Part shown: positions 3,420 to 46,267 of the stretch, piece by piece
Numbering within the stretch: position 1 is the stretch's first letter
Layout of the letters: each line of letters begins with the position of its first letter
NCBI RefSeq assembly: GCF_016427505.1
Contig: NZ_JAELXS010000001.1
Location: 620,001 to 684,000 of the forward strand
Reading direction: 5' to 3'
Source of the DNA: Sphingomonas mollis
GTDB lineage: Bacteria; Pseudomonadota; Alphaproteobacteria; Sphingomonadales; Sphingomonadaceae
Length of the DNA: 64,000 nucleotides
Notes under the pieces: model-generated
Told to the model about the DNA's origin: nothing
Seen by the model: only the letters and a program-made list of their open reading frames with translations
Databases searched by the model: none
Program-made: the position numbers and the translations under genes

Positions 3420-4024
3420 GCCGTTGCCTGCGTTATCTGCCGTCAGCTACGGGCGCAGCAATCCGCACGGTGCGAGCGGGGTGTGTCGGTGGCAGATCGC
3501 TCGGGCACCTCTACGCGCAACTGCAATTGAGTGGCCGCCGTGGATGATCCGGCGTCCATACGCTTGGCGGTAACGGTGATAATCATGAGGCAAGCCCTCT
3601 TCCAGATACCGCCGATCATTCGGCGGTGAATCAGCGAAATGAAGATTGTCTCAACAATACCGCCGTTCGACGCCCCCGATACGGACCCGCCATTTCTGGA
3701 CTGAACGATCCCAATGGAACACATCGCGAAGCGGTTTGACCGCGCAAGCACCAGTGTTTTCAGGTCTTCGCGAATGTCCGTCACCGTCTCCATCGTTAAA
3801 AAACGCGCCAAGCGATCCGACGTTGGCGCGTTCTGGCCGAATGATCGATTTCGGCTGACTGATATACGATCTGAAAGGCAGGGGCAGTCAGGAACCCGAT
3901 TTTTTAGAGCTTGCCTGATCGACGGTCGCGTAAACGTGCCTCTGCCAGGCGAGGCAGAATTAGCCATCTAGTTCACGTCAATGAATAAGGCTGATTTTCA
4001 AATAAAGGCTCTGATAAAAGATAC
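3420..4024. other. Intergenic stretch without a supportable gene
   Basis: About 600 bp of visibly lower GC than the flanks. It holds a possible 174-codon minus-strand frame (3443-3967) and two short plus-strand frames (3646-3858, 3714-3971). None has a convincing ribosome site, a recognisable motif or the third-position GC bias of the neighbours. It may be the remains of a decayed gene or an old insertion scar; I recognise nothing in it. Confidence 0.5.
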
Positions 4025-39090: not shown

Positions 39091-40746
39091 TCACGCCCGA
39101 TTGGCGGCGCTCAACACCGCGCGGACGCTGGCGGTGGCGATGTCGCTGTCGAGACCGACGCCGAACACCGTGCGGCCATCGGCGGTGCGGCATTCGACAT
39201 AGGCGGCGGCCTGCGCATCGGCGCCGTGGCCGATCGCGTGTTCGCTGTAATCCACCACGTCGAGCGTCGGCCCCGTTTCGCCCAGCGCATCGATCACGCC
39301 GGAGATCAGGCCGTTGCCGCGTCCCGAGATTGACCGGTCGACGCCATCGACCGACACATGGCCGACGAACAGGCGCTGGCCGGCGGTGCCGGTCTCCTCG
39401 TAATCGCGCAGCACGAAGCGGTCGCCGGCGCGGGGGAGGTAGGTCGCCTCGAACCGGCCCCAGATATCGGCGGCGCCGAGTTCGCGGCTGGTTTCGTCGG
39501 CCAGCGCCTGAACATGGCGGCTGAAATCGGCCTGCAGCCGCTTGGGCAGCTTCAGGCCCTTGTCCTGTTCGATCACCCACGCGACGCCGCCCTTGCCCGA
39601 CTGCGAATTGACGCGGATTACCGCTTCGTAGCTGCGGCCGAGATCGGCGGGATCGATCGGCAGATAGGGTACTTCCCACAGGCCATCGTTACGCTGGCCC
39701 TGCGCCACGAAGCCCTTCTTGATCGCGTCCTGATGCGATCCGGAGAACGCGGTGAAGACGAGATCGCCGGCATAGGGCGTGCGCGGATGGACGGGCAGGT
39801 TGGTGCAATAGGTGACAGTATTCACCACCTCGTCGATGTCCGACAGGTCGAGCCGCGGATCAACCCCTTGCGTGTACAGGTTCAGCGCCAGCGTCACGAG
39901 ATCGCAATTGCCGGTGCGCTCACCATTGCCGAGCAGGCAACCCTCGACCCGGTCGGCGCCCGCCATCATGCCCAGTTCCGCCGCCGCGACGCCGGTGCCG
40001 CGATCGTTGTGGGTGTGGAGCGAGATGACGACGCTGTCGCGGTCGGGGATATTGCGGCCGAACCATTCGATCTGGTCGGCATAGATGTTGGGCGTCGCGC
40101 ATTCGACGGTGGCGGGCAGGTTCAGGATCAGCGGATGATCCGGCGTCGGGCACAGCACGTCCATTACCGCCGCGCACACCTCGACCGAGAAATCGAGTTC
40201 GGCGGTGGAGAAGGTTTCCGGGCTGTATTCGAAGAACCAGTCGGTATCGGGCTGTTTCGCGGCCTCGTCGCGCAGCACCTTGGCGCCGGCGATGGCGATC
40301 GCTTTCACCTCTTCGCGGGTCATGCCGAACACGATCTGGCGCCAGGCGGGGCTGACCGCGTTGTAGAGGTGGACGATTGCCGTCTTCGCGCCCTTCAGGC
40401 TGGCGAAGCTGGTTTCGATCAGGTCGCGGCGCGACTGGGTGAGGACCTGGATGGTCACGTCATCGGGGATGCGGCCATCGCGGACGAGGCCAGAGATGAA
40501 GTCGAATTCGGTCGCGCCGGCGGAGGGGAAGCCGACCTCGATCTCCTTCAACCCCACCTTGCAGAGCAGGTCGAACAGCCGCGTCTTCTTTTCCGCGTCC
40601 ATCGGATCGATCAGCGCCTGATTGCCGTCGCGCAGATCGGTGGACAGCCAGCGGGGGGCGTGCGTGATCGTGCGTGACGGCCATTGCCGGTCGGGCAGGG
40701 CGATGGGCGGGAACGGTCGGTATTTGGTCGATGGATCGCGGAGCAT
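39091..40746 (-). CDS. leuA: 2-isopropylmalate synthase
   Basis: 551 residues. It condenses acetyl-CoA with 2-ketoisovalerate, the first step of leucine synthesis. The opening [20 protein letters not shown] and [17 protein letters not shown] belong to the longer, type-2 form otherwise known from actinobacteria and fungi. [12 protein letters not shown] carries the metal-binding histidines, and a C-terminal leucine-binding regulatory domain is present (from about 440). The ribosome site CGGGAAG precedes ATG 40746. Expression is probably controlled by a leucine-rich leader peptide and hairpins upstream, in addition to feedback inhibition by leucine. Confidence 0.96.
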
Positions 40747-40763
40747 GGTAACTTCCCGGCTTC

Positions 40764-40859
40764 GCCGCCACGGGTACGAACCCGCGCGGCCATTATGGCG
40801 CGTATGGGTGGTCGTCGGCCCTTAGGGAAGTGCGCATGCGTGCACGACCGCCCTAAGGG
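40764..40859 (-). promoter_or_regulatory. Attenuator-like region upstream of leuA
   Basis: On the minus strand CCCTTAGGG (40859-40851), overlapping the leader stop, can pair with CCCTAAGGG (40827-40819), with a GTGC/GCAC pair between them. A second strong hairpin (40790-40764, inner stem CGGGT/ACCCG with the outer stem GCCGC/GCGGC) ends 17 nt before the leuA start, beside its ribosome site. The layout fits leucine-responsive attenuation, but no T-tract follows either hairpin. Control could therefore act on Rho access or on translation. Confidence 0.55.
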
Positions 40860-40897
40860 CGGGTAAGTCGCAGGATCAGGAGAGCCGCACGCATCAT
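40853..40897 (-). CDS. leuL: leuA leader peptide
   Basis: A 14-codon frame reading MMRAALLILRLTRP, with ribosome site GGAGG 6 bp before the first ATG and stop TAG at 40855-40853. Four of 14 residues are leucine and one is isoleucine, packed in the second half (LLILRL), as in amino-acid biosynthetic leader peptides. Stalling on scarce leucyl-tRNA would change pairing of the CCCTTAGGG hairpin that overlaps its stop. It is too short for routine gene calls and was found by reading the strand upstream of leuA. Confidence 0.7.
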   Translation of the reverse strand: MMRAALLILRLTRP

Positions 40898-41018
40898 CGT
40901 GCGCCTCCAATGCCGCCGGTATGGCGATTTGTCCATCGGTGGCGGTGGCCCTCGCGCACTTTTCCTTAACGGCGATGGGTTAGGTCGGGTTCGGCACCAG
41001 TTTGCCGAAAGGAGCCGA

Positions 41019-41414
41019 ATGCGCCAGATCGTCTATATCAGCAGCCTGTGCCAGAACGTCGTCGCCGATATTCCGGCGATCCTGGCGACCGCACGGCGCC
41101 GCAATGCCGGGCAACTGGTGACGGGCATGTTGTTCTTCGACGGCCGCCGGTTTCTCCACGCGATCGAGGGGGCGGCGGGGCCGGTGCAGCAGATTTTCAC
41201 CCGTATCCAGGGCGATCCCCGGCATCAGTCGATCCTGATCCTGTCCGATCGCGGGATCAAGCGGCGCGAGTTCGGGGTGGAGGCGATGGCGTATCGCCCG
41301 CCGGCGGAATCGGACCTGCCGACGATCGCGCGGATGGCGATCCTGTCGGCGCATGCCTCACCAGCGGCGCGCGATACCTTCGATGCCTTCATGCGGATGC
41401 GCCGGGCGGCGTAG
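41019..41414 (+). CDS. BLUF-domain protein lacking key photocycle residues (BLUF1)
   Basis: 131 residues from ATG 41019 with the strong ribosome site AAAGGAG; the frame to 40899 is spurious. It is a single BLUF (blue light using FAD) domain with a short C-terminal tail. Tyr6 (IVYIS) and Asn29, equivalent to Tyr21 and Asn45 of AppA, are present. The glutamine equivalent to Gln63 is His47 (RRFLHAIEG), and the usual tryptophan position is Glu88 (FGVEAM). The neighbouring paralogue keeps Gln and Trp at the same positions. FAD may still bind, but a normal BLUF photocycle is unlikely. It could have become a light-insensitive partner or a redox-tuned variant. Confidence 0.9.
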   Translation: MRQIVYISSLCQNVVADIPAILATARRRNAGQLVTGMLFFDGRRFLHAIEGAAGPVQQIFTRIQGDPRHQSILILSDRGIKRREFGVEAMAYRPPAESDLPTIARMAILSAHASPAARDTFDAFMRMRRAA

Positions 41415-41462
41415 GCGGCGTCGAAACAAATCGAGCAGAAACGAAAAGTGAACCAGTAGAAG

Positions 41463-41855
41463 ATGCGCCAGATCGTTTACATCAGCACCCTGCACCGCGA
41501 CGCCGTGGTGGATATCGACGACCTGATGGCCGTATCGCAACGGAACAACACGCGGCAGCACGTGACCGGCCTGTTGTTCTTCGACGGCAAGCGGTTCCTT
41601 CAGGCACTGGAAGGCGAGGAAGCGGCTGTCGAGACGACGTTGGCGCGCATCCGCGATGACGCCCGACATCGCGCCATCGTGATCCTGTCCGACCGGACCG
41701 TTGCCGCGCGGGAATTCGGACCATGGGCGATGGCGTATCGCGCATCCGGTGGCGACGAGGGCGAGATCGCCCGGATCGAAGCATTGGTGGCCAACGCGAC
41801 ACCGGCGGTGCGCGCCACGTTCGAAGGCTTTGCCAGGATGCGCCGCGCGGCCTGA
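41463..41855 (+). CDS. BLUF-domain photoreceptor (BLUF2)
   Basis: 130 residues forming one BLUF domain with complete photocycle residues: Tyr6 (IVYIST), Asn29, Gln47 (KRFLQALEG), Trp88 and Met90 (FGPWAMAY). It aligns without gaps through residue 90 with the BLUF protein encoded 48 bp upstream, and both end in ARMRRAA-like or MRMRRAA tails, so the pair arose by tandem duplication. BLUF proteins sense blue light through FAD hydrogen-bond rearrangement and usually signal by protein contact. No output domain is attached. The partner is unknown; the two could form heteromers. Confidence 0.93.
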   Translation: MRQIVYISTLHRDAVVDIDDLMAVSQRNNTRQHVTGLLFFDGKRFLQALEGEEAAVETTLARIRDDARHRAIVILSDRTVAAREFGPWAMAYRASGGDEGEIARIEALVANATPAVRATFEGFARMRRAA

Positions 41856-41877
41856 TACCGCGCGGCGATCCGTCGTC

Positions 41878-42480
41878 TTACTGGGCGGCGAAGGCGGCGT
41901 TGATCGTCAGGTCGACCTTGTCCGATACGACGGGCACGGCCATGCCTAGGCCGAAGTCGTTGCGGCTGATCGATCCGGTCGCACGGAAGCCGAAGTTCAG
42001 CTTCTTGCTCATCGGGTTCGCGCCGGCGCCGACGAAATTCGCCTGCAACGTAACGGGCTTGGTCACGCCCTTGATCGTCAGGTTGCCGGTGATGACGGCG
42101 CGGTCGCCGGTGGCGCGCACGCCGGTCGATACGAAGCGGGCGGTGGGATTGGCGGCGGCGTCGAAGAAATCCTTCGACTTCAGATGCTCGGTGAAGCGCG
42201 GCGAGGTGGTCGACAGCTGATCGACCGCGAAGGTCACGTCGACCTTGGTGTCGTTGGGCTTGGCCGGATCGATCGTGATCGAACCGCCCGAGGCGCCGAA
42301 CTGACCCTGCAGCATCGAGAAGCCCATATGGTTGACCTGCCACGTCACCTGCGTGTGATTGGCGTCGACCGGGTAGGTGCCGGCGGTGACCAGCGCCTTG
42401 TTGGGGGTGCCGGGGGTGCCGGTCTGGGCGAGAAGCGGGGCCGCGATCAGCATGGCGGCGGCGGCGAGGACGAGACGCAT
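41878..42480 (-). CDS. YceI family periplasmic protein
   Basis: 200 residues with a signal peptide (LVLAAAAMLIAAPLLAQ) and ribosome site AGGGAG. The lipocalin-like YceI fold is recognised by YPVDANHTQVTWQVNHMGFS, RFTEHLKSKDFFDAAANPTA and ITGNLTIKGVTKPVTL. Family members bind isoprenoid-type lipids in the periplasm and are often induced by stress. The gene lies 22 bp from the convergent BLUF2 gene. No catalytic role is expected. Confidence 0.92.
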   Translation of the reverse strand: MRLVLAAAAMLIAAPLLAQTGTPGTPNKALVTAGTYPVDANHTQVTWQVNHMGFSMLQGQFGASGGSITIDPAKPNDTKVDVTFAVDQLSTTSPRFTEHLKSKDFFDAAANPTARFVSTGVRATGDRAVITGNLTIKGVTKPVTLQANFVGAGANPMSKKLNFGFRATGSISRNDFGLGMAVPVVSDKVDLTINAAFAAQ

Positions 42481-44402: not shown

Positions 44403-44414
44403 TTCGATCTCTCT

Positions 44415-44511
44415 CCCCTCCCGCTGGCGGGAGGGGTCGGGGGAGGGCAGGTTGAAGGGGGCGGCGTTGGCGGACAGGCCCTCCCCTGACCCCTCCCGCA
44501 AGCGGGAGGGG
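44415..44511. repeat. REP-type pair, family 3 (CCCCTCCCGC hairpins)
   Basis: Two self-complementary units, CCCCTCCCGCTGGCGGGAGG at 44415 and CCCCTCCCGCAAGCGGGAGG at 44490, lie in the ilvB-ilvN junction. They are separated by about 50 bp that is itself partly inverted (GGGGGAGGGC and GCCCTCCCCT). This is a third REP family in the same operon. Confidence 0.78.
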
Positions 44512-44521
44512 AACAGAAAGG

Positions 44522-46267
44522 TCAGACCAGCGCCTTGGCTTCGTCGTCCATTTCGCCGGACACTTCGTTGGCCTGCAGGATCATGTCGGTATGCGCCGCG
44601 CCCGACGGGATCATCGGGAAGCAGTTGGTCAGTTTCGACACTCGGCAATCGACCATCACCGGCCCGTCATAGGCCAGCATGTCGGCGATGCCGGCATCGA
44701 GCTGGTCGCGCGTCTCGATGCGAATACCCTTCCAGCCATAGGCTTCGGCCAGCTTCACGAAATCGGGCAGCGATTCGCTGTAGCTTTCGGCGTAGCGCGA
44801 CGAATAGGTCAGTTCCTGCCACTGGCGGACCATGCCCATATATTCGTTGTTCAGGATGAACACCTTCACCGGCAACCGGTACTGGCCGGCGGTGGCGAGT
44901 TCCTGGATGTTCATCTGGATCGACGCCTCGCCGGCGATGTCGATGACCAGCGCATTGGGATTGCCCAACTGCGCGCCGATCGCGGCGGGCAGGCCGTACC
45001 CCATCGTGCCGAGTCCGCCAGACGTCAGCCACTTGTTGGGCAGTTCGAAGCCGAAATGCTGCGCGGCCCACATCTGGTGCTGGCCGACCTCGGTCGTGAT
45101 GATCGGGTCGCGGGCATGCGTCGCCTCCCACAGCGCGCGGACGGCGCGTTGCGGCATGATGTCGGGGCCGACCTCCGGAAAATCGAGGCAGCGGACGGCG
45201 CGCCAGCCTTCGATCCGGCGCATCCAGTCGCCCAGATCGGGCCGGGGATGCTGGCGCGATTTCCACACGCGGACCATATCCTCCAGCGCGTGGCCGGCAT
45301 CGGCGATCACGGCGAGGTCGACGCGGACGTTCTTGTTCACGCTCGACCGGTCGATATCGATATGGACCTTGCGGCTGTTCGGGCTGAACGCGTCGAGCCG
45401 GCCGGTGACGCGGTCGTCGAAGCGGCTGCCGACGGCGATGACCAGATCGGCCTCGTTCATCGCCATGTTCGCCTCGTACGTCCCGTGCATGCCCAGCATG
45501 CCGAGCCACAGCGGACCGCTCGCCGGATAGGCGCCGAGGCCCATCAGTGTCGAGGTGACGGGCGCGCCGGTCAGCCGGACGAGTTCGCGCAGCAGTTGCG
45601 ACGCGGCGGGGCCGGCGTTGATGATGCCGCCGCCGGTGTAGAGCACCGGGCGCTCGGCGGCGGCGAGCATGTCGACCACCGTCTCGATCGCCTTCGGATC
45701 GGCCTTCACCTGCGGGCGATAGGTCTTGTGCTGGATCGGACCGGGGCGAACATATTTCGCGGTCGCGACCTGCACGTCCTTGGGGATGTCCACGACGACG
45801 GGGCCGGGGCGACCCGACGTGGCGATGTGGAACGCCTCGTGGATCACCGCGCCCAGCTTGGCGGGGTCCTTCACCAGATAATTATGCTTGGTGCAGTGGC
45901 GGGTGATGCCGACCGTGTCTGCTTCCTGAAACGCATCGGTGCCGATCAGTGCAGTCGGCACCTGACCGGTGATGACGACCATCGGGATCGAATCGAGCAG
46001 CGCATCGGTGATGCCGGTGACGGCATTGGTCGCACCGGGGCCTGAGGTGACGAGCACGACGCCGGGCCGACCGGTGGAGCGGGCATAGCCCTCCGCCGCG
46101 TGCGTCGCCGCCTGTTCGTGGCGGACGAGGATGTGCTTGATCCGGCCCGAGCGGAACAGCGCGTCGTAGATCGGCAGCACGGCGCCGCCGGGATAGCCGA
46201 ATACGATCTCGACACCGAGATCGCACAGCGCCTCGACGAGGATGTCGGCTCCGCTTTGCTCGGTCAT
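44522..46267 (-). CDS. ilvB: Acetolactate synthase large subunit
   Basis: 581 residues. The N-terminal thiamine-diphosphate domain has the catalytic glutamate in VRHEQAATHAAEGYAR, and the FAD/middle domain follows. The C-terminal cofactor motif reads AGEASIQMNIQEL and ends in VFILNN. The first acidic residue of the usual GDG/GDA motif is therefore glutamate instead of aspartate, an oddity that may be common in sphingomonads. It makes acetolactate or acetohydroxybutyrate, the first committed step for branched-chain amino acids. It works with IlvN downstream and begins 70 bp after miaA. Confidence 0.96.
   Translation of the reverse strand: MTEQSGADILVEALCDLGVEIVFGYPGGAVLPIYDALFRSGRIKHILVRHEQAATHAAEGYARSTGRPGVVLVTSGPGATNAVTGITDALLDSIPMVVITGQVPTALIGTDAFQEADTVGITRHCTKHNYLVKDPAKLGAVIHEAFHIATSGRPGPVVVDIPKDVQVATAKYVRPGPIQHKTYRPQVKADPKAIETVVDMLAAAERPVLYTGGGIINAGPAASQLLRELVRLTGAPVTSTLMGLGAYPASGPLWLGMLGMHGTYEANMAMNEADLVIAVGSRFDDRVTGRLDAFSPNSRKVHIDIDRSSVNKNVRVDLAVIADAGHALEDMVRVWKSRQHPRPDLGDWMRRIEGWRAVRCLDFPEVGPDIMPQRAVRALWEATHARDPIITTEVGQHQMWAAQHFGFELPNKWLTSGGLGTMGYGLPAAIGAQLGNPNALVIDIAGEASIQMNIQELATAGQYRLPVKVFILNNEYMGMVRQWQELTYSSRYAESYSESLPDFVKLAEAYGWKGIRIETRDQLDAGIADMLAYDGPVMVDCRVSKLTNCFPMIPSGAAHTDMILQANEVSGEMDDEAKALV

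Follow-up and report, generated by a model that had tools for sequence, protein, structure and literature searches.

The BLUF domain has a ferredoxin-like alpha/beta fold, and the role of its glutamine (rotation, tautomer formation, or proton relay) has been a long-debated question. In blue light, a canonical BLUF receptor with bound flavin undergoes a reversible red shift of 10 to 15 nm. This role has been studied with designed mutants (PMC5899715, PMC7005313, PMC6695109, PMC3915823), and what is said of them here reflects the portions of those reports that were available. Replacement of Gln abolished BLUF photoactivation and replacement of Asn did not (PMC5899715), and the red shift of AppA was removed by replacement of Tyr21 or Gln63 (PMC7005313). 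The Slr1694 Q50A and AppA Q63E proteins were locked in pseudo-lit states, and the BlsA Q51A and W92A proteins behaved as if lit and were insoluble when overproduced (PMC6695109). As for the tryptophan, Slr1694 W91A showed wild-type photochemistry (PMC6695109), and AppA W104A recovered 80-fold faster and was blind in vivo (PMC7005313). The Slr1694 Q50A protein formed a neutral semiquinone that lived for a few nanoseconds and no signaling state, and changes of Slr1694 Asn31 to Arg or His were used to shift the flavin potential (PMC3915823). LOV receptors have a glutamine that was for many years regarded as essential and turned out to be dispensable, and natural Gln-less LOV receptors exist, one of which was tested and responded to light (excerpts of PMC9098866). 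When titles and the first part of abstracts in the open-licence literature were searched, no natural Gln-to-His BLUF was found. Similarly, no published Gln-to-His BLUF mutant was found in the open-licence literature, where the mutants were Gln to Ala or Glu, and its reports on Sphingomonas BLUFs yielded nothing on the locus described below.

This locus lies in a 64,000-nucleotide stretch (the window) of Sphingomonas mollis contig NZ_JAELXS010000001.1, and unlabeled coordinates refer to the window. BLUF1 (41019-41414, + strand) and BLUF2 (41463-41855, + strand) encode stand-alone BLUF proteins of 131 and 130 amino acids, respectively. The genes are adjacent and head to tail on the same strand, with a 48-base gap between them (41415-41462, +), and a Shine-Dalgarno-like AGGAG was identified in the sequence 5' of BLUF1 (41010-41014, +). 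They are located between two conserved neighbors on the opposite strand, which we take to be leuA (2-isopropylmalate synthase, named from its sequence; 39091-40746, -) and, presumably, a YceI-like gene (41878-42480, -). Both proteins scored above the Pfam PF04940 cut-off of 25 bits (74.6 bits over residues 1 to 90 for BLUF1 and 90.2 bits for BLUF2), and BLUF1 is a BLUF family member by sequence, with the curated cut-off exceeded across the whole domain. The sequence-only reading had placed two BLUF open reading frames here and aligned them without gaps through residue 90; the Pfam search and our alignment confirmed this, through and past that residue. The best sequence matches of known structure were 2byc (a BLUF-family receptor, presumably BlrB; E value of 8e-10) and Tll0078 1x0p (E value of 3e-9). 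A BLUF fold is predicted for BLUF1 from the sequence match to these solved BLUFs; a fold model built from four sequences had a mean pLDDT of 43.5, too low for use.

A Pfam search of the whole 3.94-Mb genome, which can miss very degenerate BLUF copies such as the one in genome G566, identified no BLUF gene besides BLUF1 and BLUF2. No model was found in NCBIfam. Viral contigs contained no close relative of BLUF2, and the 150 plasmid records that matched BLUF1 were all less than 60% identical to it. A scan of positions 40740 to 41900 yielded no terminators (0.8 expected in shuffled sequences) and likewise no promoters, an Rfam search produced only microRNA matches below their cut-offs, and counts of 8-mers upstream of leuA-linked BLUF genes revealed no interpretable shared promoter motif. 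Two other elements of the window were observed. A short open reading frame, MMRAALLILRLTRP (40853-40897, -), lies upstream of leuA, is followed by a hairpin at about 40817-40862 (region z of -2.4), and has a near-identical counterpart in Sphingomonas sp. Leaf339; together, the reading frame and hairpin resemble a leuA leader for attenuation by leucine. A palindromic element (44406-44522), whose two strands matched microRNA models below their cut-offs, is located between genes that we take to be ilvN- and ilvB-like, and it is probably a dispersed repeat.

Direct reading of the codons confirmed that positions 47 and 88 are His and Glu in BLUF1 but Gln and Trp in BLUF2, and that both proteins have Tyr6, Asn29, and Met90. 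The canonical set in BLUF2 was encoded by TAC (Tyr6), AAC (Asn28), AAC (Asn29), CAG (Gln47), TGG (Trp88), and ATG (Met90). The corresponding BLUF1 codons, with + strand positions for four of them, were TAT (Tyr6, the electron donor; 41034-41036), CGC (Arg28; 41100-41102), AAT (Asn29), CAC (His47; 41157-41159), GAG (Glu88; 41280-41282), and ATG (Met90). When aligned to solved BLUFs, His47 and Glu88 fell at the glutamine and tryptophan sites, respectively. Thus, compared to a canonical photoactive receptor, BLUF1 had the strand-1 Tyr (also found in the BLUF1 protein of Leaf339) and the Asn that holds the flavin C4=O, it lacked the hydrogen-bond-switching Gln (as did its Leaf339 counterpart), and it had the Met but not the Trp among the signal-passing residues of strand 5. 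Arg28, which the sequence-only reading did not mention, is one more substitution close to the flavin. It adjoins the flavin-holding Asn29; residue 28 is taken, by position, to correspond to Asn31 of Slr1694. The earlier statement that BLUF1 had lost both photocycle residues held for the glutamine, which is essential and gone. It did not hold for the tryptophan, which is a signaling residue whose loss is photochemically tolerated in at least one BLUF, and Tyr6 was kept. Because the Slr1694 W91A protein had wild-type photochemistry in the available part of PMC6695109, Glu88 need not matter in BLUF1.

A search of genome contigs for close relatives of BLUF1 yielded one, which was at the same locus in Sphingomonas sp. 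Leaf339. The two BLUF1 proteins were 98% identical (3 of 131 residues changed), and the codons for His47 and Glu88 were the same in both species, which indicated that these residues were not errors of one assembly. In this single species pair, BLUF1 had a dS of 0.212, a dN of 0.010, and a dN/dS of 0.049, and the dN/dS values of leuA, ilvC, and yceI were 0.051, 0.060, and 0.082, respectively. The neutral chance of three or fewer amino acid changes among the 22 differences in BLUF1 was 6e-9. Based on this value and the dN/dS of 0.049, BLUF1 is constrained, and as strongly as the flanking genes in the one pair compared. The proposal that BLUF1 is a natural Gln-to-His, Trp-to-Glu variant was therefore borne out by the dN/dS and by the same codons in Leaf339, with the addition that the variant has been retained by selection. 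Since evolution has left BLUF1 nearly unchanged, the protein probably performs a task in which the normal light switch plays no part.

The BLUF2 proteins of the two species differed at 35 of 130 residues, and the BLUF2 dS of 0.845 was about four times that of the flanking genes leuA, yceI, and ilvC (0.17 to 0.23). An island of low identity to Leaf339 surrounded BLUF2 (41419-41880, +), with 48% identity in the intergenic gap that precedes the gene and 62 to 92% per 60 bases within it. Identity was 85 to 98% before the island and 92 to 100% from 41881 to 42472, and it was lower again past the yceI-like gene. The BLUF2 proteins of S. mollis and Leaf339 were each other's nearest relatives (tree support of 100/99), and either a diverged allele was swapped in within one species or BLUF2 has evolved much faster. 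The Leaf339 BLUF2 gene (locus L033, 3460-3849, +) has a TGC codon for TAC and thus Cys6 for the electron-donor Tyr, a residue found in 2 of 413 BLUF domains; genome G031, whose coordinates agree with those of the Leaf339 contig, is the same assembly, and Cys6 in G031 is not independent proof. With Cys6 in BLUF2 and His47 in BLUF1, Tyr6 and Gln47 do not occur together in either gene of the Leaf339 pair. The idea that Leaf339 is without any ordinary BLUF was rejected, as three further domains elsewhere in its genome (two in L421 and one in L422) have Tyr6, Asn29, Gln47, and Trp88.

Many Sphingomonas species have BLUF genes located between leuA and a yceI-like gene, and BLUF1 is one of this set. 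In the genus tree, whose rows are best matches and no census, 120 of 144 rows had a BLUF gene beside leuA or ilvC, and most of the loci read at the leuA-linked site had a single canonical BLUF gene. A BLUF1 match was present in 225 of 295 genus genomes; among the matches listed, those above 55% identity were from the S. mollis genome and G031. Among the genus domains read, His47 at the leuA locus occurred only in S. mollis and Leaf339, and Glu88 also occurred in G151. This third genome has two BLUF genes at the same locus in the reverse order, with the canonical gene first, and the second copy has Arg28, Glu88, Gln47, and Leu90. Across the three species, Glu88 and Arg28 were found in all three divergent copies and His47 in two of them. 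The S. mollis BLUF1, Leaf339 BLUF1, and second G151 copy formed a clade with a support of 100/98 (97 in a larger tree); the canonical G151 protein grouped with one from G213 (100/100), which is in another clade. Given that the G151 copy has Glu88 and Arg28 yet retains Gln47, parsimony suggests that Trp88 was probably lost before Gln47 in the BLUF1 lineage. A scenario in which the gene was duplicated in place in these two species alone, with BLUF1 and BLUF2 of both forming one clade, was rejected (p-AU of 0.0185). A clade that also included the Glu88 copy of G151 was not rejected (p-AU of 0.255). At three other loci (L078, L101, and L103, from G290, G222, and G011), BLUF genes flank leuA on both sides, about 2.3 kb apart, and in L103 the tryptophan position of one copy (3611-4006) is occupied by Arg.

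A survey of other BLUF sequences for His at position 47, which the sequence-only reading had proposed, was run in part. In 413 distinct BLUF domains, position 47 was Gln in 401, His in 7, Glu in 2, and Gly, Ser, or Thr in 1 each; repeats and sequences with fewer than about 60 aligned residues had been dropped, and the set was biased toward Sphingomonadaceae and relatives of the queries. The seven His47 domains were the BLUF1 domains of S. mollis and Leaf339, two loci of G138, and one domain each in G343 (L148), G323 (L246), and G512 (L401). On a quick tree of the 413 domains, which was poorly resolved and placed L246 on a long branch, the His47 label required five changes. In the 12 Gln-less domains, Tyr6 was kept in three, replaced in five, and at an unalignable position in four. 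All three Gln-less domains that kept Tyr6 (S. mollis, Leaf339, and G323) had lost Trp88, compared to 4 of the 382 Gln domains that kept the tyrosine (Fisher test, 4e-6; rows with a gap at position 88 were left out, and the three represent only two lineages). Arg28 was present in 79 of the 413 domains, 75 of which have Trp88, and in 5 of the 148 genus loci. The G323 domain, from another genus, belongs to a single BLUF gene (L246, 1052-1522, +) with Tyr6, Asn29, His47, Gly88, and Met90, and it is the closest parallel to BLUF1 outside the BLUF1 clade. In two tandem pairs (L247 and L381, from G297 and G451), both members have Ala for the flavin-holding Asn29 and keep Gln47.

In a retrospective count, the glutamine was absent from 8 of 23 tandem domains and 2 of 274 others (Fisher test, 1.5e-8). 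Domains were considered tandem when their genes lay no more than 900 bases apart on one strand. Before the count, we removed the fragment loci L248 and L274, repeats of the same sequence, and any row in which position 47 was a gap. Some of the counted rows are related (S. mollis and Leaf339, the two G138 loci, and G566 and G596 of one genus) and the set was partly picked via degenerate queries, and for these reasons the notion that tandem loci are prone to loss of the glutamine from one member is treated as a lead and not claimed. Results were mixed when 240 genomes of the family were sampled afterward (176 listed places, 130 loci read). All four domains of the two close tandem pairs that Pfam listed, in G550 and G451, had retained Gln, and the newly found Gln-less domains in L386 (Gly) and L401 (His) had no BLUF neighbor within the stretch fetched. 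This sample also included G566 and G596, which were known before; their Glu47 members were missed by the Pfam search, which shows that the search can miss just such copies. Tandem pairs with Gln in both members were found at L084, L181, and L247 and in G550 and G451. Genome G138, which had 11 BLUF matches, carries a canonical BLUF gene next to a gene for a His47 BLUF without a recognizable Tyr6 (L107, 1002-1430 and 1427-1921, +; L104, 1369-2288, -), and the gene overlap at L107 (ATGA) suggests translational coupling. In G566 and G596, a highly degenerate Glu47 BLUF is beside a canonical one (L153, 2114-2533 and 1480-1929, -; L162, 917-1111 and 1480-1764, +).

Our main reading, to which we assign a probability of roughly 0.45, is that BLUF1 functions, under selection, as a BLUF protein uncoupled from light and most likely lit-like. 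With Asn29 and the Asp-x-Arg-His motif kept, BLUF1 would still fold as a BLUF and bind flavin, although the insolubility of overproduced BlsA Q51A and W92A, described in the available part of PMC6695109, means that flavin binding is not assured. Light would be unable to drive the Tyr-Gln hydrogen-bond switch, and on the mutant data in the accessible text of PMC5899715 and PMC7005313, BLUF1 is expected to lack a normal red-shifted state. The protein would then be held in one signaling form regardless of light and would keep at a steady level, independent of light, an output that ordinary BLUFs adjust in response to light. The sequence-only reading had suggested a dark-locked form. This suggestion was not supported, because the published Gln mutants are pseudo-lit (Slr1694 Q50A and AppA Q63E) or lit-like (BlsA Q51A, and likewise W92A) in the portion of PMC6695109 that was available; by this analogy a lock in the lit-like form is more plausible, with the limit that the mutants have Ala or Glu and that a His could still act as donor and acceptor of hydrogen bonds. 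The dispensable glutamine of LOV receptors (PMC9098866) also counts against the main reading.

The same residues could be read differently. BLUF1 may be a non-canonical photoreceptor in which a flavin radical or photoreduced flavin replaces the Gln switch as the signal; an electron would move from Tyr6 to the photoexcited flavin, with His47 as carrier of the proton, and Arg28 would shift the flavin potential. We consider this the main alternative, at a rather low probability. It fits the retention of Tyr6, Asn29, and Met90 in BLUF1 when the tyrosine of 9 of the 12 Gln-less BLUFs is replaced or unalignable, as well as the recurrence of Tyr6, Asn29, and His47 with loss of Trp88 in another genus (G323). 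The partial texts of PMC3915823 and PMC9098866 add the semiquinone of Slr1694 Q50A, the potential shifts caused by Arg or His at Asn31, and the light response of a natural Gln-less LOV receptor. However, the radical of the engineered Gln-less BLUF lives for nanoseconds and leads to no signaling state in the same part of PMC3915823, and Tyr6 may have been kept only for flavin packing. In an improbable alternative, BLUF1 has a structural role, joining BLUF2 in hetero-oligomers and adjusting how BLUF2 responds to light. Large assemblies are known for short BLUFs, PixD among them, the two genes are adjacent on one strand with 48 bases between them, and other tandem loci have one Gln-less member (the overlapping G138 genes, G566, and G596). 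The idea of a BLUF2 partner, which the sequence-only reading had raised, was nevertheless weakened by the fates of the two proteins, as BLUF2 changed at 35 of 130 residues or was replaced while BLUF1 changed at 3 of 131. In addition, the canonical neighbor in G151 is from another clade, the Leaf339 BLUF2 itself lacks Tyr6, and there are tandem pairs with Gln in both members.

Two further explanations had still lower standing. BLUF1 might be a flavin-based redox or pH sensor in which His and Glu beside the flavin report on the cell; two titratable residues and one Arg do replace neutral residues at positions in the flavin pocket, and we judged this quite improbable. The loss of a key residue from a duplicated gene is what a decaying copy might show, and this reading was rejected as very improbable because BLUF1 has an open frame, a ribosome-binding site, and a dN/dS of 0.049 versus Leaf339, with 128 of its 131 residues unchanged.

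Beyond the main reading of BLUF1 as a light-uncoupled protein, there may be a natural class of Gln-free BLUFs that keep Tyr and Asn, change Gln to His, drop Trp, and signal through another kind of flavin chemistry, either photoreduction in which His carries the proton or a state that stays lit-like at all times. BLUFs with these residues were found in two lineages, and we think the existence of such a class is rather unlikely. If it does exist, the Leaf339 locus does not rely on the textbook switch, and ordinary BLUFs are encoded at other sites in that genome. In any case, BLUF1 (His47), the G151 copy (Gln47 without Trp), and the ordinary paralogue BLUF2 are a ready series for separating the roles of Gln and Trp. 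There is a parallel in LOV receptors, where variants that included natural ones overturned the belief in an essential glutamine (PMC9098866, in the part available).

BLUF1 resembles the short BLUFs PixD/Slr1694, Tll0078, BlrB, and BlsA in that it consists of a BLUF domain and a short C-terminal tail and has the Tyr, Asn, Met, and Asp-x-Arg-His residues. It differs from these proteins in that His replaces the essential Gln and Glu replaces the Trp, whereas BLUF2 has the canonical residues. The engineered Slr1694 Q50A, AppA Q63E, and BlsA Q51A proteins lost the same Gln and are photoinactive or lit-like in the available parts of the reports cited above, but they are laboratory changes of Gln to Ala or Glu, whereas BLUF1 is natural, has His, and is also changed at Trp88 and Asn28. 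Natural glutamine-deficient LOV receptors, as described in the available part of PMC9098866, are like BLUF1 in that the active-site Gln is absent and His is among its replacements, and they differ in their LOV fold and cysteine-adduct chemistry. The leuA-linked BLUFs of other Sphingomonas species occupy the same locus as BLUF1 and are mostly encoded there by a single canonical gene.
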